Source: a virus. Taken from it: 64,000 nt of DNA. Location of the stretch: positions 124,001 to 188,000 of the IMG/VR virus record IMGVR_UViG_3300026521_000003. One strand, given 5' to 3'. The notes beneath the pieces were generated by a model. The model made no database searches. It was not told where the DNA came from and worked only from the letters and a program-made list of their open reading frames with translations. Below are positions 2,435 through 63,500 of the stretch, piece by piece (position 1 is the stretch's first letter; every line of letters begins with the position of its first letter). A program made the translations under genes and the position numbers.

Positions 2435-5182
2435 ATGAATCATAACTTTTATTATGAAGGTCGACAAATAAAAAATTATTTAATTGGGTTTGCAAGTATA
2501 TTTTCTGAAATACCTTATAAAAATCGAAAGGGCAAATTGGAAAGTGTGCCAATTCATTATGGTTCTCCATCAGATATAATATCATATTTAGAAATGAATG
2601 TAGATAATGATGAAACTCATAATAGAAATAGATTAAAAGATATATCTGTACCTTTATTTTCATTTCGTATGACATCGATGGAGCAAAATCTAGAACGTAG
2701 AAGAGCTCCACTCGATTCTATTGCTGTAGATTTACGTCCATTAGGATATGGAACCGGGTATGTAGCTATGAAACCATCACCATTTAAATTTACTTTTGAA
2801 TTATTGTTATGGGCGAGTAGTGATTATCAGGCGTTTGAAATAGTTGAACAAATAGTACCATATTTTAATACCCCTCAACAAGTAACAATAGAGCCCCTTC
2901 CTAGATGTCCGGTTTCAACAACAGAAGTTTTTTTAGAAAGTTTAGATATTGATACTGAGCCAGACTCTCAAAAATATTCTGCATTAGTAACAATGAATTT
3001 CAATCTAAATGGATGGTTATTATCACAACCAAGAATTTGGTCAACAAATATGCAGTTTGAATTATCTATGTTGGATAAAGAGAATATTACTCAAGGGGTC
3101 GATTTAAATGACTCTGATTATTCTATTGGACATGAGATAATTGATAATAATAGTAGAAATACCAATACAAATACTCAAAAAGAAACTACTATCGAATCAT
3201 TTATAAAAAGTTCTAATTTAAATGAATTATATTCTGAGACATTAGATATGATTAAAATATTAAAAGCAGAGGGTTATATTAGTGATGATGGTCATATTTT
3301 AACAACTGATAATATTACTATTTTTTATAAGGGTAAAGAAAAAAACCTTTCTATCGAATATATAAATTGGTTAATAGATGAAAACGAAGATCTTGAATAT
3401 CTATATGATAATTTTAATATGCAAGAAAAATTATTAGCTCAAGATTTAAAAGCTGATAATTTAGTACTTGATACTATGATTTATGATAAAAGTGAAACTG
3501 TTGAAATATATTTAAAATTGCTAGATAATAATTTAGTAACAATGGGATTTAATTTAACGGATGTACAAATAACAAATTCTGAGAAATTAAATATTTTTGG
3601 TACACCTAGAATTGATATTGATGATGCATTAAATAGAATGAAGTTATATTATAGTGTACTTAGTAATTTAAAAGTAAAAAAAGAAACTATATTATCTAAT
3701 ATTGATAGTACAATTAAACCGTCATTTATTAAATTTGATTTGCCAAATGATTTTGAAATTGATGAAAGATTAAAAAAGTATGATACTAAGTTAGTTATTA
3801 ATGATATATATACGACTATTAATGATGATTTAAGTATTGATTTAACTCTTGAAACAGAATTAGATCTTAGACTTTGTTATATAGAAAATAATGAATTGGT
3901 TGAATTAGAATATGATACAAAATTTAATTTTAGTCCACCGATTGGTACTATGAATGTTTATGCTATAATATCAAATGAATCAAATTATATCTTTGGTGGT
4001 TTATTATATGATCCATCGGATAGTTTATTTTCTAATGAGAAATATTTTATTAATGGTCAAAAAGTTCCATTGGAATTAAGTAATGATATACAAAATGTAG
4101 TTAATATAGAAAAAGTATTAAATTCTTCATTTAAAGAGATAGATAAATTTATTATTGCTATATTGATATTTAATAAATTGAAAAATAATATTGATGATAT
4201 TAATGATTTAGAAAATGATCAATTATTTAAAATCGCCAGCAAAAAATACAATATTACGAAGTATGAAATTGTTGAATTTGCAAATATCTTATATTCATTG
4301 AATAAGGAATTAAGTGATAATATTGATTTGATTAGTGTTCCATCAAATTTGCCAATTTCAACCGATGAATTTAACAATAAACAAATTAATATAGCACCAG
4401 ATTTATCTATGGTATTGGCACTAGATAAAAATAATAAGCCTATATACGATGTTAATAATGACGGTTTTATAAATAAAACCGATTTAGAAATATTGGGATC
4501 TGAGGTTGATAATATTGACTCATATGATTATGAATTGAAATATGGTGTATGGTATAAACGATTTAATATTGATAATATAACAGAAGAAAAAATACTTAAA
4601 ATATCACAAAACATTAAAACAATTTATTATTTAACTGAAAAAAACGATATGACGGAATTAAAATTATATTTAGAATTAAAAGATCAGGGATTAGTATCAG
4701 AGCAATATTCTATAATTTCTACGGAAAAAAATTTAAAAAAATTAAAAGCCTTAGGTTATAATATAGAAGAATTAGAAGATAAACTTCTTTTTATGCGAAT
4801 GTTTATAGATGCAGTAAAAAATATAATGATTGATGACCGAGATTTTATATTGTATCAAGTTCCAGAAATGAATGAAGATAGTAAGTCAATGTTATATCGA
4901 ACTGAAGGTTTGGATATTGATAGTATTGTTTTAGGTAAATTTATTGAAAAATATTTTCAATTATTAGATGATTATGACCAACGTATAATGGACGACATTC
5001 TATTTAGACAATTATTATCAAAAGATATGGGTGTGTATTATAATGCTGCATATGAATTTAATCTTGTGTGGGTAGATATAGTAAAAACGGATTTTTTTAA
5101 AAATAGTTTACAAGTAAAAACTCCAAGATTGGATGAAATTTTACCATATGTAAAAGAAAAAATAGATGAAATCCTAAAATAG
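2435..5182 (+). CDS. tail connector / sheath terminator gp15-like, with ~700-residue extension
   Basis: A 915-residue protein. The first ~210 residues match T4 gp15, the ring that caps the tail tube and sheath and binds the neck: 'PIHYGSPSDIISYL' near residue 40, 'KPSPFKFTFELLLWASSDY' near residue 115, then 'IVEQIVPYFNTPQ', and 'MNFNLNGWLL' near 190. T4 gp15 is about 270 residues, so the remaining ~700 are an unusual addition. The extension is rich in Asp, Asn, Ile and Leu with alternating helical and beta segments. It contains one dockerin/EF-hand-type calcium loop, 'DVNNDGFINKTDLEIL', at about residues 672-687. The reading frame is uninterrupted. The extension may form fibres or whiskers around the neck; this is inference. 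Confidence 0.68.
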   Translation: MNHNFYYEGRQIKNYLIGFASIFSEIPYKNRKGKLESVPIHYGSPSDIISYLEMNVDNDETHNRNRLKDISVPLFSFRMTSMEQNLERRRAPLDSIAVDLRPLGYGTGYVAMKPSPFKFTFELLLWASSDYQAFEIVEQIVPYFNTPQQVTIEPLPRCPVSTTEVFLESLDIDTEPDSQKYSALVTMNFNLNGWLLSQPRIWSTNMQFELSMLDKENITQGVDLNDSDYSIGHEIIDNNSRNTNTNTQKETTIESFIKSSNLNELYSETLDMIKILKAEGYISDDGHILTTDNITIFYKGKEKNLSIEYINWLIDENEDLEYLYDNFNMQEKLLAQDLKADNLVLDTMIYDKSETVEIYLKLLDNNLVTMGFNLTDVQITNSEKLNIFGTPRIDIDDALNRMKLYYSVLSNLKVKKETILSNIDSTIKPSFIKFDLPNDFEIDERLKKYDTKLVINDIYTTINDDLSIDLTLETELDLRLCYIENNELVELEYDTKFNFSPPIGTMNVYAIISNESNYIFGGLLYDPSDSLFSNEKYFINGQKVPLELSNDIQNVVNIEKVLNSSFKEIDKFIIAILIFNKLKNNIDDINDLENDQLFKIASKKYNITKYEIVEFANILYSLNKELSDNIDLISVPSNLPISTDEFNNKQINIAPDLSMVLALDKNNKPIYDVNNDGFINKTDLEILGSEVDNIDSYDYELKYGVWYKRFNIDNITEEKILKISQNIKTIYYLTEKNDMTELKLYLELKDQGLVSEQYSIISTEKNLKKLKALGYNIEELEDKLLFMRMFIDAVKNIMIDDRDFILYQVPEMNEDSKSMLYRTEGLDIDSIVLGKFIEKYFQLLDDYDQRIMDDILFRQLLSKDMGVYYNAAYEFNLVWVDIVKTDFFKNSLQVKTPRLDEILPYVKEKIDEILK

Positions 5183-5211
5183 AAATAAATAAAATAAAAA
5201 AGGAGATTAAT

Positions 5212-5409
5212 ATGAGAATTTCAAAATTATTTGAATCAGCACCTAGAAAGAAAGGAAAAACTACTGCTAATGATGTAAGAGTGTGGTTAGATAAAATAAA
5301 TAATGGTGAAGCTACTGAAGAAGATATACAATTATATGATGATTTAAAAAGCATATCACGAAAATTAGGTGGAAAAACAACAGTAATAGAAATACTTAAA
5401 GCGATTTAA
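5212..5409 (+). CDS. small hypothetical protein with leader-like N-terminus
   Basis: A 65-residue basic protein of unknown function, preceded by an excellent AAGGAG ribosome site. It starts 'MRISKLFESAPRKKG', similar to the short leaders ending in hydrophobic-x-E/S-A seen on several other proteins in this window, and may be an internal head protein. The rest is predicted helical ('DVRVWLDKINNGEATEEDI'). A strong hairpin overlaps its stop codon. The upstream AAATAAATA at 5183-5191 is a poor late-promoter match. Confidence 0.75.
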   Translation: MRISKLFESAPRKKGKTTANDVRVWLDKINNGEATEEDIQLYDDLKSISRKLGGKTTVIEILKAI

Positions 5410-25182: not shown

Positions 25183-28100
25183 ATGTTTGAAGAGAAATTT
25201 AATGATTTAGTAATTGGTATCAACGCTTTTATTATAAAGACAAAAAAAACTTTAGGTTTTGAAACACTTGAAGAAAAAATCGATTTTTATCATAATTTGG
25301 TTGATGAATTTAATTTTTATACTTTACTTATAAGTGAGCTAGGTAATGAAGTAGATAAAGATAAATATATAGATATTTATTCATCTTTAACTGATTATAA
25401 AGAAGATCTAAATAATGCATTCGATAGTATTAAAGATAACCCAATTATCAAGGCTTATATCGAAGATTTAAATAATGATATTATAACAAAAGGATTATAT
25501 TCTGAAATATACAATTATGAACGAAGTCTAGTAAATATACCATTACGTAAAATAGATATTGAGTATATTCAAAGAGTAATGGATGTCGTTAATAATTATA
25601 ATATTGAACTATTTGAATTTTATAAAAATAATCCATATAATATTGATGAAAGTCTAGATTTAGTAATTCCAGAAAAAGTAGAATGTATAGACAAGAATGA
25701 TTTTACGAATAAAATATATAATTATTTACTCGAATTATTTAATATTTATAAAATCCAGAACAAATTATTATTGGAAGAATTAGAGGTTCAAGAAAAAAAT
25801 ATTGATGAATTGCTAATTGAAACTAATACGATACTTCGGGATTATAATAATAATAAAGAAATATATGAATATGGTATGACCTCAGAAGAATATTATAATG
25901 CTGCTAATACACGTATAGATATATTAAATGGGTATATTTCTAGATTAATAAACTTAGAAATTGAAAGATTTTATAATAAATATATTTCATTTGAATTATT
26001 ACAAACTCAAATAAAAAGCTTAATATCATATTATACAGATAATAGTTTATATAAAGAATTTTTAAATAAAATTAAATTTAACAATCTCTTAGAAGAATTA
26101 CAGTCGGTGCTAACATTAATTGAAGATGGTAAAATTAATATTGACAAAAATTATATAGTTGACAATATTAACTTAAAGGATATTACATTAGAAATTGTTG
26201 AATTATCATCCATATTGAAACAAAAAATTTATTATGTTGAAAATATTAATATTACTGGTGTACCATTACTTAAAGAGTTTGAGTTTTATCAATCTTCAGA
26301 CTTTCTAGAAAGTATTAAAAAATACTATTATAATTTAGTTAATAATACTATATCAAATAATTCTCAATTAACAGTATATGAAATAGGTGATAATACTATT
26401 GATGATGTCCGTAATGAGTTCTTAAATTTATATGCTAATTATAAAAAAATGGTTTCATTTCCTATTCAATATATGACTTTATATCAGATCGAAGATTACG
26501 TAGATGATATTATCAAAACACAAGAAGAATTAAAAAAAATAGCTACTATATTTTATAATTCTGCAATATTGACTTCGCCTCCAACTTATAAAACAAGTAT
26601 TGAAAATCAATTTAATCTTTTTTTAGATGAGATAAAAGAAGATTTAATAAATGTATCTAACATAAAAAATTCAAAATCTCTCGATAGTTTAGATGAAAAC
26701 TATGAAAGTGCGAATATAATAATGGATAAAATTCAAAATAATTTAAGTGTATTAGACAATATTATAACTTTATCTGATAAAACTATTCTTCTAGGTTATA
26801 AAGATTTTATATATGATAAATTAATAAGTAAGATTAATATCATATATACAAAGCTAATTCAATTTTATAACAACAAACAATATATAGAACTTATTGAATA
26901 CTATAATATTGAATATAAGAAAAATCTAATAGATTTTAATTTTATGTATAGCCTGGAAAATTATAGTGATTTATTATCGAATATTATTGATGATGAACAA
27001 AACGTAGATAAATTATTTATGGAAGAACAAATATCTAAAAAAAATGATAGCTCTATGGAATATATACGGGCATTTTTAATTTCGCTAATAGAAGAAGAAA
27101 AATATAAAACTATAAGAGTAGAAATCTATAAAAGTCTTGATAATTTATATAGTTATTTTATTGATGATAATATTTATGATTTGACATTTTTAAACAATGA
27201 AAAAAAGCTTAAAAAACTCTATTTAGATAATATCTTAATAAAGGAGAATTATATTTATTGGTATGATCGAATTATCAATGTTATGGATCGATTTAATCAT
27301 ATTGACAAAACTTTATTTAGTAGTAGTCTATTAGATTCTAAAGTAATAGAGTTTAATTCATATACATTGTTAGAACAAATAGAAAATCTAGTTATGAATC
27401 AATATAGAATTATTGCGGACATTAATAGAATGTTACAAGAAGGAATATCTAGTACTTATGATGAAAGTATTGAAAATAGTATTGAAATTATTGATAAATT
27501 CAATATTAAATTTATAGAGGATTTTAATGAATATCAAAAATTGGTTGAAAATATTGAAAAATTAGAAGCAAGTTTTAAGATAGATTTGGAATTTAATACT
27601 AAATTATTAAAAGTCAAAGAAGAATGGGATAATTTAATTGAAATGAATAATATAAGAGATATAATCCCAGTCTCGTATGGTGATATAGACATTATAACAG
27701 GTAATATTCCTTTTAATGTTGAATTTAGTGCTAGACCAGAAATTATAGAATTTAATAATGATGATGTAGTAGAAACGACTTTTAAATGGTATATTGACGG
27801 TAATGTTATAGAAGGAGATAAAATAAATTATACCTTTTATAGAGAAGATAATTATAAAATTGAGTGTGAAATGAATTATCCCGATGGACGTATTTCTACT
27901 CGAAGGATTGAATTAGAATTAGGTGGACCAACAAATTCACAGATTGTTAAAGAATCAAGTTTATTATATAATCCTATAAAAAATATCAACCAACCAAAAC
28001 TAACTTATTTTGATATAGAATTAAATATGCAGCGTACTATACCACTCATTATAGATGGTGACATAGCTCCTATGATTGATGAAGGGAATATTAAAATAGC

Positions 28101-52748: not shown

Positions 52749-52769
52749 AAATGTAAAATAGTATATAAT
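52749..52769 (+). promoter_or_regulatory. AAATGTAAAAT element with TATAAT, before the topoisomerase
   Basis: AAATGTAAAAT (52749-52759) and TATAAT (52764-52769), ending 20 bases before the topoisomerase start. It is identical in its 11-base core to the copies at 15711, 18507, 61516 and 63514. Confidence 0.5.
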
Positions 52770-52789
52770 AAATGATATAAGGAAAATGA

Positions 52790-54421
52790 ATGGCAGATAA
52801 AAATTATTCAGCTAGTGATATTAAAGTATTAAGTGATCGCGAACATGTTCGTTTAAGAACAGCAATTTACTTAGGTAGTACTGAGGAGACATCATATGAA
52901 GTGCCAATTTTTGAAAAAGATGATATAAAAATTAAGCAGAAATTTTTCATACCTGCAATTTATAAAGCATTTAATGAAATTTCAGATAATGCAATAGATG
53001 AATTGACTCAGCTTGCTAAAAAAGATAAAAAAATATCTTTTGCTCATGATACTATAAAAAATAGATTTAAAGTCTGTGATAATGGTCGAGGTGTACCTAT
53101 TGATATGCACCCTCAAACTGGTAAATATACACCTGAAACCGTTTTTACAGAATTAAGATCTGGTAGAAACTTTGATGATGATGCTAAGGATTCTGGGGTA
53201 ATTGGTACAAATGGGGTAGGTTCATCATGTGTTGCTATGTTATCTGAAGAGTTTTTAGTCCAAATTAAAAGAGATGGTAAGTTTTATGAACAAATGTATA
53301 GAGATGGTACAGCATCAATAGATGAACCAGCAATTAATAATTATAAAGGTAGAGATTCTGGAACGTGTATTGAATTTAAAATTGATACTGCATTACCTCA
53401 ATTTACTACAACGAAAATGGATCCGGAACTAATTCAAAATAGAGTTGTTGAGATTGCACTTAATAATCCACAATTAGATTTATCATATGTTAGAAAACAG
53501 TTAGATGAAGATGGAGAAGAAGAACAAATTCAAGCACATTATGCTTTTAAAGGTGGTATGTTAGAATATGTCAAGCGTGTTTCTGAAAGATTTTTTGAAT
53601 TTAAGTATGACCATGACGAATTTACAGCCAGATACTATGTAATTCTTGACAAATATCAAGGAATAGATGAAAAAATATTCGTATATGTTAATTCATCATT
53701 ACTTTATGAAGGTGGTACAGCTGCACATATGTTTTTTAATACGTTCTTTTCTAGTGTGAATGATGGTTTAAAAAGAGAAATTAAAAAACGTAAAATTGAT
53801 TTAAATAAAAATGATGTTAAACAAAACCTTTTAGTTGTTGCTGATGTTAAGATGAAAAATCCAAGATATGATAATCAATCAAAAACTAGATTAATTTCAC
53901 AAGAGATTAAAAAACATATTGATAAAATGATTGGTGATCAAATTTCAAAATTTTTATCAATTAATAAACAATGGATAGAAGAAATTCTTGATAGAGCCGA
54001 ATTTAGACAACGTATTGCTGATATGGCTGAAGTTAAGAAAAAACAAAAGAAGAAAAAAGGTAAATTGGCAAAACTAATCGATTGTTATACAAAGGATAGA
54101 AGCCAAGCAACAATCGCATTCTCAGAAGGAGATTGTATTGACTCTAACACTAAAATTCATTATGAAGGTGGCATTAAACCAATCAAAGATATTTTAGTTG
54201 GTGAAAAAGTTTTAACTCATGATGGTACTTATCAATTTGTTATTGCTAATAATTCAGTTGAGAAAGAAGAATATATTATTGAATTTGGAGATGAAAAAAT
54301 ATCATTTTCTAAAAACCATAAGCATCCTATTTTCAATACTGAAACTGGAGAGGTAGAGGTAATCGAAACTTATCTTATTAATCCAGAAGTACATAAATTA
54401 CTTAGAAAGAAAGGGTTATAA
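52790..54421 (+). CDS. type II topoisomerase large subunit (GyrB/T4 gp39-like), fused to intein N-half
   Basis: A 543-residue protein. The GHKL ATPase domain has 'NEISDNAIDE' (N-box), 'DNGRGVPIDM' (G1) and 'GVIGTNGVGSSCV' (G2). A GyrB-like transducer follows, ending at 'LIDCYTKDRSQATIAFSEGD' (to residue 448). In GyrB this is where the toprim motif 'EGDSA' begins. Here, instead of Ser, Cys449 starts a 95-residue Hint segment and the frame then stops. The protein therefore lacks the toprim metal site and rest of the subunit. With a matching C-half intein plus toprim encoded elsewhere, trans-splicing would rebuild it. T4 also splits this subunit (genes 39 and 60), but differently. It controls replication and DNA topology. 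Confidence 0.9.
   Translation: MADKNYSASDIKVLSDREHVRLRTAIYLGSTEETSYEVPIFEKDDIKIKQKFFIPAIYKAFNEISDNAIDELTQLAKKDKKISFAHDTIKNRFKVCDNGRGVPIDMHPQTGKYTPETVFTELRSGRNFDDDAKDSGVIGTNGVGSSCVAMLSEEFLVQIKRDGKFYEQMYRDGTASIDEPAINNYKGRDSGTCIEFKIDTALPQFTTTKMDPELIQNRVVEIALNNPQLDLSYVRKQLDEDGEEEQIQAHYAFKGGMLEYVKRVSERFFEFKYDHDEFTARYYVILDKYQGIDEKIFVYVNSSLLYEGGTAAHMFFNTFFSSVNDGLKREIKKRKIDLNKNDVKQNLLVVADVKMKNPRYDNQSKTRLISQEIKKHIDKMIGDQISKFLSINKQWIEEILDRAEFRQRIADMAEVKKKQKKKKGKLAKLIDCYTKDRSQATIAFSEGDCIDSNTKIHYEGGIKPIKDILVGEKVLTHDGTYQFVIANNSVEKEEYIIEFGDEKISFSKNHKHPIFNTETGEVEVIETYLINPEVHKLLRKKGL
54134..54418 (+). other. split-intein N-terminal half (IntN)
   Basis: Residues 449-543 of the topoisomerase gene. Splicing block A is 'CIDSNTKIHYEGG', with Cys1 as nucleophile. 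Block B is 'KISFSKNHKHPIFN', with the conserved His and a Ser in the usual Thr position. 'VGEKVLTHDG' lies between them. The length (95 residues) matches known IntN pieces such as those of split DnaE inteins (~100), and no endonuclease domain or C-terminal His-Asn is present. Insertion is exactly after the toprim Glu-Gly-Asp. Confidence 0.82.
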
Positions 54422-58957: not shown

Positions 58958-59776
58958 ATGAGTAATTTATTTCAAACCCTAGAACAGTTATCATCTGATC
59001 TTATGGAAAAATCAAAAAATGCTAGAACAAAAGCTGCAAAATTAGCCTATGAAGATTCTGCTATGTTATTATTAAATGAGATTAATAGGTTGAATAAGGA
59101 AATTGAAGAAGACCAAAAAGCTAAAATAGAAGCTCAAATGAAAAAATTTGATATTCATCATCAAGATTATACAACACTTTTATCGAGAGGCCATATTGGC
59201 ATCCCCAGTAATATTCATGCTGAAATTTCATCATTTACGGTGGGACAAAAGAAAGCAGGAGAAGTTTTTCAAAATTTAAGTGAAGATTATAAACATGATG
59301 TACTAAATCATTTAGCCGCAGATAAAGAAATGATTGAACAATTAGTAGCATACCGTCATAATTATCATTATATTACTCACACAAAAGGTCATGATGGTAT
59401 TGATGAAGATAATAATGTATATGAAGTTAAAAATAGAAAATATGTTTATAAAAAAGATAAACGTGCAAATTGTGATCTTATTTTTGATAGAATTTCAAAA
59501 GCTACTGAAAGAAAATTTCGAGAAGGGCGCCCAACAATTATAATGAATATGACTGATGGTGCAAAATTATTATTAGAAATGAAAATACGTTTTTCAGACG
59601 AATTATTAGATCTTTATAGTGAAAAAGTTGAAGCATTAAAATCATCAAAAACATCTGGATTTGCAATTCCATTTAGTGAATATAAAGATTATATTGAAGA
59701 AATAACTTATGTGTGTAATGATATTGACCAATACCATATACAAAAACAGGTATTGGATTATATAACTTTATCTTAA
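58958..59776 (+). CDS. possible PD-(D/E)XK-type nuclease
   Basis: A 272-residue protein. The first ~60 residues are a helical, charged region. In the middle, 'KGHDGIDEDNNVYEVKNRKY' (143-162) fits the PD-(D/E)XK active site: Asp146 or Asp149, then Glu156-x-Lys158 on a beta-strand, as in many restriction-type nucleases. Next is 'CDLIFDRISKATERKF', a likely helix with basic residues, then a hydrophobic strand 'PTIIMNMTDGAKL'. No second domain is recognised. It may degrade host DNA or act in recombination. It stands alone on the plus strand and its stop overlaps the converging membrane-protein gene. Confidence 0.52.
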   Translation: MSNLFQTLEQLSSDLMEKSKNARTKAAKLAYEDSAMLLLNEINRLNKEIEEDQKAKIEAQMKKFDIHHQDYTTLLSRGHIGIPSNIHAEISSFTVGQKKAGEVFQNLSEDYKHDVLNHLAADKEMIEQLVAYRHNYHYITHTKGHDGIDEDNNVYEVKNRKYVYKKDKRANCDLIFDRISKATERKFREGRPTIIMNMTDGAKLLLEMKIRFSDELLDLYSEKVEALKSSKTSGFAIPFSEYKDYIEEITYVCNDIDQYHIQKQVLDYITLS

Positions 59777-61482
59777 GCGTTTTTAAGTCGACCAGAACCA
59801 GGTTTCATAATACCATTAGAAACAGCTACTCCAATCACAGCCTTTTTATTTTGGGGTATTTTTGTAAGAAAACTAAATTTTTCTTTAAGAGTTTTTTTAA
59901 GTGCATCAATTAAATTAGTTAGTGTTTTCACTAGATTATAATTGTGTAAAAGAATAATAATTGTTATTAAAGCCATTAGAATATGATTGCCTGTTATTTG
60001 TTCACCCAATATAGTAAATTCACCGAATGGTCTTTGATCTCTTAACCAAGGACATTGTGGTGGGCAGGTTGTAATATCTTTTGGGTGTTTAATACCTAGA
60101 TAATACCAAAATAAAGTAGGACCATATGCACTACTGAACCAATCATTTAAACTATATTTGCCTGCCATAGTTACTAAAACTGCAGTAAAATCAAAATCAT
60201 ATTTTGGGTCACCAATAAAAAACATTTGTGTCCATATATGATATGCCATTTTTGCGAGATAATATCCTAGAACCATCTTTAAACCTCTTACGGCATAAGA
60301 TAATGGTTTTTTAAGATTATCTGGAATTTTATAGCCTAATATTTCATCTTTTGTACCAGCTTCAAGTTCAGATAAAAAAGTATTAAATTCATCTATTTTT
60401 CTATCCCAATTTTTAATAAAAGCTAATTCTGTAAATGGTTTGAACATTTTTGCTTGAACCCCAGCTAATTTTTCCGACATTTTTATTGCTCCGGCTTCAA
60501 CCATCTTTTTAAGTTTATTTGCAAACGATTTCATGGCTTTCATAAAACCTTCATTTCTAAAGATCCCTACTAATTCTTTCCATCCATTTTTAAGGTTTTT
60601 AACAACTAGTTTAAACATTCCGACTGCCCATTTCCAACCTGCTGCTATCTTTTGTAATATATTATCAACAGATAGATTGCTTAGATCGACTGCTATTTGT
60701 TTAAGGGTATCTAGATTTTTTTTAATATCGGTTTTTAAATTTTGTAATAATGATTTTGAAGCTGCATCTAAATCTTCTAATCTTTTAGATTTTTCATTAA
60801 ATAGAGCAAGTTTTTCTTTTATTGTATTAATTGTTATTGCGTATGCATCTGCCTCTTCATTATCTTTTTGTGTTAGTGCTTCTTTTTCTAAGGTATCAAT
60901 CTCTTTAGTTAAACTTTCAAGTTCTTTTATTAAATTATTTTTTTCTTTTTCTTCCTCAGGAGTTAATTCTCTTGAACCAACTATACTATCCATAGCTCTT
61001 TTTGCCAATTCTTTAGCATTATCTAAAAATCCCTCATTTAAAGCTTCATTTAATAGACTATTATTTGATGACACATCTATTAACATCTCATTTAATGTCG
61101 GGTCTGTTTGAATTGTGTCTTTAATTTTTTTATCTAACTTATTAATAAATTTCTCAAATACTTTATCATTATTCAAACGTCCTTCATCATAATAATTAAT
61201 TTCATTTGAAATATGTTCAACAATGGTTTTAAAAAAAATATCATTTAATGATTCATAATATCTGTTAGATTCAAGGGTTTCATATATTAATGATAGTTTG
61301 TTATTTTCGGGTTGAGAAATTTTATATGGTACTAATGCATTAGCAATTCTTGCTATTTCAATAGCATCTTTATCAATATAATCATCTACTTTTAATTCAA
61401 TCAAATAAGTTTCAACTTCGGAACCCACATTAATAATGTCTGCTTCATTAAAAATATCCGTGAATGATTTTATTTTTGTCAT
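59773..61482 (-). CDS. large membrane-associated late protein, leader-like N-terminus
   Basis: A 569-residue protein. It opens 'MTKIKSFTDIFNEADIIN', the leader pattern ending F-N-E-A. Residues ~130-300 are helical with long coiled-coil stretches ('LIKELESLTKEIDTLEKEAL'). Two hydrophobic segments, ~396-425 ('SYAVRGLKMVLGYYLAKMAY') and ~500-515 ('ILMALITIIILLHNYN'), are likely membrane helices; between them lies a Cys-Pro loop ('TTCPPQCPWL'). A minus-strand GAATAAATA sits 21 bases upstream. A protein packaged in the head that inserts into the cell membrane at DNA entry would look like this, but no homologue is recognised. Confidence 0.75.
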   Translation of the reverse strand: MTKIKSFTDIFNEADIINVGSEVETYLIELKVDDYIDKDAIEIARIANALVPYKISQPENNKLSLIYETLESNRYYESLNDIFFKTIVEHISNEINYYDEGRLNNDKVFEKFINKLDKKIKDTIQTDPTLNEMLIDVSSNNSLLNEALNEGFLDNAKELAKRAMDSIVGSRELTPEEEKEKNNLIKELESLTKEIDTLEKEALTQKDNEEADAYAITINTIKEKLALFNEKSKRLEDLDAASKSLLQNLKTDIKKNLDTLKQIAVDLSNLSVDNILQKIAAGWKWAVGMFKLVVKNLKNGWKELVGIFRNEGFMKAMKSFANKLKKMVEAGAIKMSEKLAGVQAKMFKPFTELAFIKNWDRKIDEFNTFLSELEAGTKDEILGYKIPDNLKKPLSYAVRGLKMVLGYYLAKMAYHIWTQMFFIGDPKYDFDFTAVLVTMAGKYSLNDWFSSAYGPTLFWYYLGIKHPKDITTCPPQCPWLRDQRPFGEFTILGEQITGNHILMALITIIILLHNYNLVKTLTNLIDALKKTLKEKFSFLTKIPQNKKAVIGVAVSNGIMKPGSGRLKNA

Positions 61483-63103: not shown

Positions 63104-63475
63104 TTAATATCCTAATGCTTTTCTTACTGAATTCATAGAAGGTATTTTTAATTTTCTACCAAAGTAGAATCCTGTAAACGGATCTGTTATTCCATTTCGT
63201 TCGGCAATAATCCACCAAAATTTTGAATTACCATAGAATTTATATGATATTGCATCAGGTCTATTAGTGTATTTTGCATGGTCAATAGTCCATACATCAT
63301 CATCTAATTCTGCAATACTTAAATCGACTCTATGTTCCCATGTTTTACTTTTTGTTCCTGGTAACATATATGAAAATCTATTAACATCTCTTTTTGATGT
63401 ATCTTGAACTTTGAACCATTCTTGTTCTTGTTGAGGTACACTAGATCTGCTATCGTCGTATGGTCTTATAGGCAT
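63104..63475 (-). CDS. baseplate wedge protein, T4 gp53-like
   Basis: A 123-residue protein. Start 63475 (MPIRPYDDS) is chosen because GGAG lies 6 bases upstream; an in-frame ATG at 63487 has none. 'RVDLSIAELDDDVWTIDHAK' and 'PDAISYKFYGNSKFWWIIAE' then 'NGITDPFTGFYFGRKLKIPS' follow the gp53-type plan: a D-[LV]-[ST]-x-[IA] segment, a 'Yg.s.fwwii...NgI.DP' core, then 'G..L.iPs'. gp53 is essential for T4 wedge assembly and is LysM-like at its end. It is the first gene of the gp53-gp25 unit. Confidence 0.82.
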   Translation of the reverse strand: MPIRPYDDSRSSVPQQEQEWFKVQDTSKRDVNRFSYMLPGTKSKTWEHRVDLSIAELDDDVWTIDHAKYTNRPDAISYKFYGNSKFWWIIAERNGITDPFTGFYFGRKLKIPSMNSVRKALGY

Positions 63476-63500
63476 ATCAAACTCCATTTAGTTATTTACT

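Follow-up and report, generated by a model that had tools for sequence, protein, structure and literature searches.

The 64,000-nucleotide window analyzed here covers bases 124001–188000 of a 289,880-bp phage record (IMGVR_UViG_3300026521_000003, below G000) and carries on its plus strand the first part of a gene for a T4-type topoisomerase II large subunit. This open reading frame (ORF), the N-half, encodes 543 amino acids (window 52790–54421, G000 176790–178421). Its first 448 residues (52790–54133) are the N-extein and comprise the ATPase domain, the transducer and the toprim domain through Glu-Gly-Asp (EGD). Residues 3–448 matched positions 20–445 of 661 in PHROG 543 (phrog_543), the T4 topoisomerase II large subunit family (E 3.9e-91), and the Pfam GyrB domain and HATPase were found as well. 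The codons for Glu446, Gly447 and Asp448 (54125–54133), the last before the splice junction, aligned without gaps to EGDSA of Atu_ph07 and T4 gp39. The protein reads RSQATIAFSEGD up to the junction and CIDSNTKIHYEGGIKPIKDILVGEKVLTHDGTY after it, and the 95 residues from Cys449 to the stop codon at 54419–54421 are an intein N-terminal fragment (IntN; 54134–54421 with the stop). Cys449 is Cys1 of the intein, the block A nucleophile (54134–54136), and is invariant in 7 of 7 aligned IntN. The block B Ser-Lys-Asn-His, a TxxH-type catalytic motif, lies at 54308–54319, and its His is kept in all seven. The sequence-only reading of this stretch had described the gene in the same way, and the residue and coordinate reading and the PHROG match agree with it. 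It had also seen no C-terminal partner, and we found no intein C-terminal fragment (IntC) downstream of the N-half within the window. Pfam Hint matches to the IntN were sub-threshold only, and gp41-1 was its best and only sequence relative in the PDB (E 0.006–0.02). A profile built from the same-site inteins of other phage lineages ranked the N-half first among the 1,718 frames of G000 (E 1.1e-9).

The sequence-only reading depended on an ORF joining an IntC to the rest of toprim elsewhere in the genome, and such an ORF was found. A phrog_543 search of G000 placed the rest of the enzyme at 59202–60332 on the minus strand. The ORF there, the C-half (G000:C1 59244–60476, minus; L009:744–1976), encodes 410 amino acids and matches phrog_543 positions 445–502. 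It consists of a 49-residue IntC (MQLNEINIDEFDMVEINSVYSTNKVINMNDIQVEDNETFILENGLLTHN, ending in LLTHN) and a 361-residue C-extein that starts with SAIASFTEIRDPETQAGMPLKGKVLNV, with Ser+1 as its first residue and the DADPDG motif further on. The IntC scored 27.1 bits against the curated TIGR01443 model of the intein C-terminus, which has a cut-off of 15.6, and an IntC profile made without its own lineage placed the C-half at the top of the 1,718 frames (E 5.3e-9). Since the profiles from other lineages rank each half first in the genome, both fragments are of one intein allele. The halves are on opposite strands at 176.8 kb (plus) and 60.5 kb (minus), a separation of about 116 kb, and the phrog_543 search showed no second copy of the topoisomerase in the G000 record.

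The phrog_543 positions of the two halves meet exactly at 445/445. When joined, AFSEGD/SAIASFTEIRDPE (the slash marks the splice junction) aligns with neither gap nor overlap to the intact LLGEGD/SAIAGAAAVRDPE of Atu_ph07 and FLTEGD/SAIGYLIDVRDKE of T4 gp39, so the EGD/SAI junction is exact with respect to intact homologues. All residues of a class 1 split intein are present in the two separate genes: Cys1, the S-x-x-H of block B, the Asp of block F, the terminal His-Asn and Ser+1. Block B reads S/T/GxxH in every IntN aligned. Blocks F and G of the IntC read MNDIQVED...GLLTHN, in which D30, H48 and N49 are invariant, as is the +1 nucleophile, Ser50 of the C-half. The halves together hold all the features of a T4-type large subunit, namely the GHKL ATPase, the GyrB transducer and EGD in the N-half, DADPDG (DxDxDG) in the C-half, and TOPRIM_C. 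From these sequences, the large subunit is very probably made from two distant genes by protein trans-splicing. The reading of the gene as interrupted by a split intein at EGD of toprim was thus borne out. The predicted spliced product has 809 residues (448 + 361). It had been expected at about 640 residues or larger; the product is indeed larger and the figure of 640 was too low. The length of 809 residues is due to toprim, where the T4-type hairpin insertion is enlarged in this lineage. This insertion of about 160 residues (L009 1167–1682, minus), between the toprim helix and DADPDG, aligns to the T4 gp39 hairpin EKEDGEWFTFELNGDTIIVNENDEVQINGKWITVGELRKN at the same place, apparently twice, as if duplicated, and the best Foldseek match for its structure is the T4 topoisomerase. 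We had also considered the insertion, which forms two hairpin repeats in the AlphaFold model, as a decayed or second intein; the alignment to the T4 hairpin led us to reject this.

Under trans-splicing, the two polypeptides from the two distant genes would associate through the 95-residue IntN and the 49-residue IntC, which would fold into one Hint domain. Class 1 excision would proceed by an acyl shift at Cys1, transesterification at Ser+1, cyclization of Asn and a final acyl shift that would leave a peptide bond. EGD would then be joined to SAI in an uninterrupted 809-residue subunit, with the toprim catalytic Glu from the N-half and DxDxDG from the C-half in one chain, and a continuous toprim active site would be restored in the infected cell. 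Judging from the layout in other lineages, the scattered order may have arisen by rearrangement from an ancestor in which N-half, endonuclease and C-half were adjacent, perhaps driven by the homing endonucleases that adjoin the pieces.

Relatives of both halves were found in IMG/VR. The N-half has one (L025, in G001), which is 72% identical over residues 1–543. Its IntN has the same endpoint, which makes it very unlikely that a full cis intein is masked by a sequencing error, a possibility raised in the sequence-only reading. The C-half has relatives in L026/G002 and L027/G003 (66% identical) and in L028/G004 (95%). G004 is about 93% identical to G000 across 0–160 kb of G000, and the median identity of matched proteins to G000 is 55% for G001 and 53% for G002. 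All contigs are metagenomic and other lineages have adjacent halves, so the dispersal could be an assembly artefact, with the halves truly adjacent and an endonuclease between them. However, the C-half has like neighbors in G000, G002/G003 and G004, with a ClpP gene upstream and, downstream, a DUF7487 homing endonuclease gene (573–595 amino acids) followed by a tail gene, and the gene directly upstream of the N-half is common to G000 and G001. G001 and G002, both from one metagenome, carry one half each and cover largely complementary regions relative to G000. The DNA polymerase pieces are also dispersed alike in G000 and G001. The dispersed arrangement is thus old and backed by independent assemblies, although no relative contig has both halves, and an artefact is very unlikely.

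Selection on the halves was estimated from the ratio of nonsynonymous to synonymous substitution rates (dN/dS, Nei-Gojobori). Against L025 the ratio was 0.13 for the N-extein and 0.40 for the IntN, and against L026 it was 0.12 for the C-extein and 0.57 for the IntC; as these distant pairs are near saturation in dS and the sample for the IntC is small, the values indicate constraint and not its strength. The IntC differs from that of L028 by one synonymous and no nonsynonymous change. Both intein pieces are under purifying selection, weaker than that on the exteins. A split gene with endonuclease genes next to its pieces could be a pseudogene in decay after disruption by a mobile element, but the low extein ratios, the lack of stops and frameshifts, the intact EGD and DADPDG, the Shine-Dalgarno-like sequences before both halves and the single copy in the record make this extremely unlikely. 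Several points do weigh against trans-splicing. Evolution is faster in the IntN and IntC than in the exteins, AlphaFold modeled the C-half alone with low confidence (predicted local distance difference test 57.5, below 50 in the IntC region), and G000 is a metagenomic record that may be incomplete. The T4 large subunit is active as two unspliced polypeptides, gp39 and gp60, and covalent joining may therefore not be essential. In the main alternative, the halves would assemble non-covalently as gp39 and gp60 do, and the intein fragments would be vestigial. T4 topoisomerase II, Aeh1 NrdA and phage 25 gp43A/B have been described as functional gene pieces without splicing (PMC2988022). T4 breaks the same gene (gp39/gp60, mobA) within toprim, just after the same embedded hairpin; its break differs from that of the window lineage in lying about 100 residues past EGD, in having no intein and in leaving the polypeptides separate. 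Yet all catalytic intein residues are intact here, purifying selection has acted on both fragments across a large divergence, and vestigial fragments with an exact His-Asn/Ser would not be expected to last in at least six lineages. Non-covalent assembly leaves the conservation of the whole splicing machinery unexplained, and we regard it as quite unlikely.

IMG/VR DNA was searched for the same site with the pattern His-Asn/Ser-Ala-x7-Arg-Asp-x7-Pro-Leu-(Lys/Arg)-Gly-Lys. The pattern gave 12 loci, and the IntC was free-standing at the start of an ORF in all 12. One (L050) is the window lineage; the other 11 fall into five lineages (L042/L051; L043/L044/L046/L047/L053; L045; L048/L052; L049). 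LR756500 (L020), found by protein search, is a further lineage with a split at this site. Where upstream regions were readable, an N-half with its IntN (about 160–170 residues), an endonuclease-like ORF, called by eye from HNH-like or Vsr-like signatures and not by a family search, and an IntC with its C-half were adjacent on one strand. The window lineage differs from this layout because its halves are dispersed, and the endonuclease, of the DUF7487 family, follows the C-half instead of lying between halves at one locus. Identity of intein and extein was correlated across seven compared pairs (r 0.92), with L025 and L026, and L042 and L051, each treated as one genome. This is consistent with mostly joint inheritance of intein and extein. 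The IntN of L042, L043, L045, L048 and L020 have about 60–70 extra residues past block B, resembling a second block-B-like hairpin, which are absent from the 95-residue IntN of the window lineage. Cys1 is preceded by Leu (EGL) in the N-halves of L020 and L048 and by Asn (EGN) in that of L045, and their spliced toprim would therefore read EGLSA or EGNSA, not EGDSA. The topoisomerase small subunit (gp52-like) is also fractured by a split intein, at YHHGD/C, in L020 (5657–8418) and L052 (6803–8332), and there its N-piece is followed by an endonuclease-like gene.

The same pattern gave one locus in 84,980 bacterial and archaeal genomes, a free-standing IntC-toprim ORF with a phage-like split (L062 630–1217). 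Its contig was binned as a Chlorobiaceae metagenome-assembled genome and runs from this ORF directly into bacterial transporter-like genes; it is probably a chimera of phage and host or misbinned. Cis inteins have been described in GyrB (PMC4071816, PMC6390638). The RD-type pattern gave no bacterial GyrB match in the 84,980 genomes, and neither did a GyrB-specific pattern applied to 395 genomes from a single phylum. The Ssp GyrB cis intein may lie at EGD/SAGG, a placement that neither scan confirmed.

Further split genes were located by running intein profiles over G000. By PHROG assignment, the terminase large subunit is divided into three pieces by two inteins of the atypically split kind (IntN of 33 and 41 residues). 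The first piece (G000:C1 275182–275799, plus) ends in a short IntN at KIVY/CVDGETKI..., the second (279367–280167, plus) has a long IntC at ...ISHN/CDEMAF... and ends in the second short IntN at FE/CLDEETKV..., and the third (196330–197670, minus), with a long IntC at ...KSHN/CQFLTF..., lies on the other strand at a distance of about 78 kb. The G002 terminase is in four scattered pieces, and one of its breaks is inside the Walker A region (ASRQMSK/C... and SHN/TTIGAF), where that of G000 is contiguous (ASRQMSKTTLAAV). DNA polymerase B (PolB), also assigned by PHROG, has an N-piece at 4431–5249 (plus; ISDTD/SVTK..., with Ser1, the cysteine-less type) and a C-piece at 25461–26630 (plus; ILVHN/SCYFRI), 20 kb apart; in G001 the pieces are likewise dispersed (42931 and 70888, both plus).

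A C-piece with a free-standing IntC lies at 225480–226097 (plus; ILTHN/SAAGDV, HN/SAAGDVADVSEEN); the protein was not run against family libraries, and its name, helicase-like, therefore rests on resemblance. Motif searches of G000 revealed neither a helicase N-piece nor a UvsX gene, and an ORF at 63251–63487 (minus), considered as the helicase IntN, was rejected since it has no extein upstream. In G002, two split inteins divide a UvsX/RecA-like gene into three ORFs (L055 1678–5115), the first IntN being only about 18 residues long and placed at the Walker A motif (FGDSG/CLLPHEKIKVYEFKSNIV). The NrdA gene of G002 is likewise divided by two split inteins, here into three ORFs in a row without an intervening endonuclease (L079; G002 106996–110468); both genes were named from sequence. 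NrdA of G000 is one uninterrupted ORF of 798 amino acids (67373–69823, minus). Nine IntC in G002 scored above the curated cut-off. Endonuclease-like genes adjoin many of the split pieces but not all, as the abutting NrdA pieces of G002 illustrate. We lean toward a genome-wide architecture of dispersed split inteins in this jumbo-phage lineage, in which topoisomerase, PolB, terminase (three to four pieces, two to three atypical inteins), UvsX, NrdA and helicase would be made as separate polypeptides and ligated as proteins, homing endonucleases having driven fracture and then scattering.

Dassa et al. (2009) reportedly described fractured phage genes with split inteins at conserved motifs and a free-standing endonuclease between the halves. 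The window lineage resembles these in that the split falls at a conserved motif (toprim EGD/SA) of a conserved nucleic-acid enzyme of the phage, with Vsr-like or HNH endonucleases nearby, and the topoisomerase loci of L042, L043, L045, L048 and LR756500 fit the classical layout. The window lineage departs from them in the separation of its halves, by about 116 kb and on different strands, and in having the endonuclease after the C-half. Cyanobacterial Ssp and Npu DnaE are also replication enzymes with distant halves and a canonical split (about 100 plus 40–50 residues). DnaE, however, is a cellular gene with another enzyme and site, and the phage disperses at least two further genes. The phage helicase split intein gp41-1 shares the canonical split but has another host protein, another insertion site and low sequence similarity. 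The short IntN and long IntC of the G000 terminase are of the known TerL type (AceL-TerL, GOS-TerL), from which the terminases here differ by two (G000) or three (G002) inteins each, with pieces over both strands. The MIJ3 PolB split intein, a one-locus case with an HNH gene between adjacent halves, shares Ser1 and ...ILVHN/S with PolB of G000, whose halves are instead 20 kb apart (PMC6892783).

Phage genes fractured by split inteins are already known as a kind, and the topoisomerase site and the genome-wide scattering appear to be new. In the open full-text literature searched, neither a split phage topoisomerase nor a single phage with several dispersed fractured genes was described; the 2009 work lay outside that literature, and priority is therefore uncertain. 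The sequence-only reading had taken a topoisomerase split at EGD to be a new site as far as it knew. No published description of it appeared in that literature, and the site recurs in at least five other phage lineages. Here a fractured gene has passed the one-locus stage: its halves are on opposite strands in surroundings unrelated to each other, and the surroundings of each are retained in a relative with only about 55% identity between matched proteins. Since genes of the same kinds are found intact, split at one locus or scattered among related phages, these phages offer material to test gene breakage and trans-splicing as a neutral ratchet versus regulation. They also provide many natural split inteins, possibly mutually orthogonal, and the splitting of essential genes explains how phage annotation can miss an intact topoisomerase or terminase.

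Directly 5' of the N-half, a promoter-like TGTAAAATA..TATAATA and a Shine-Dalgarno-like AAGGAAA (52752–52785, plus) form a weak, consensus-only match. The combined motif occurs once in the window, against 0.1 expected. A similarly weak, consensus-level stretch resembling TGTAAAATA lies upstream of the C-half, which is suggestive of a promoter common to both topoisomerase halves.
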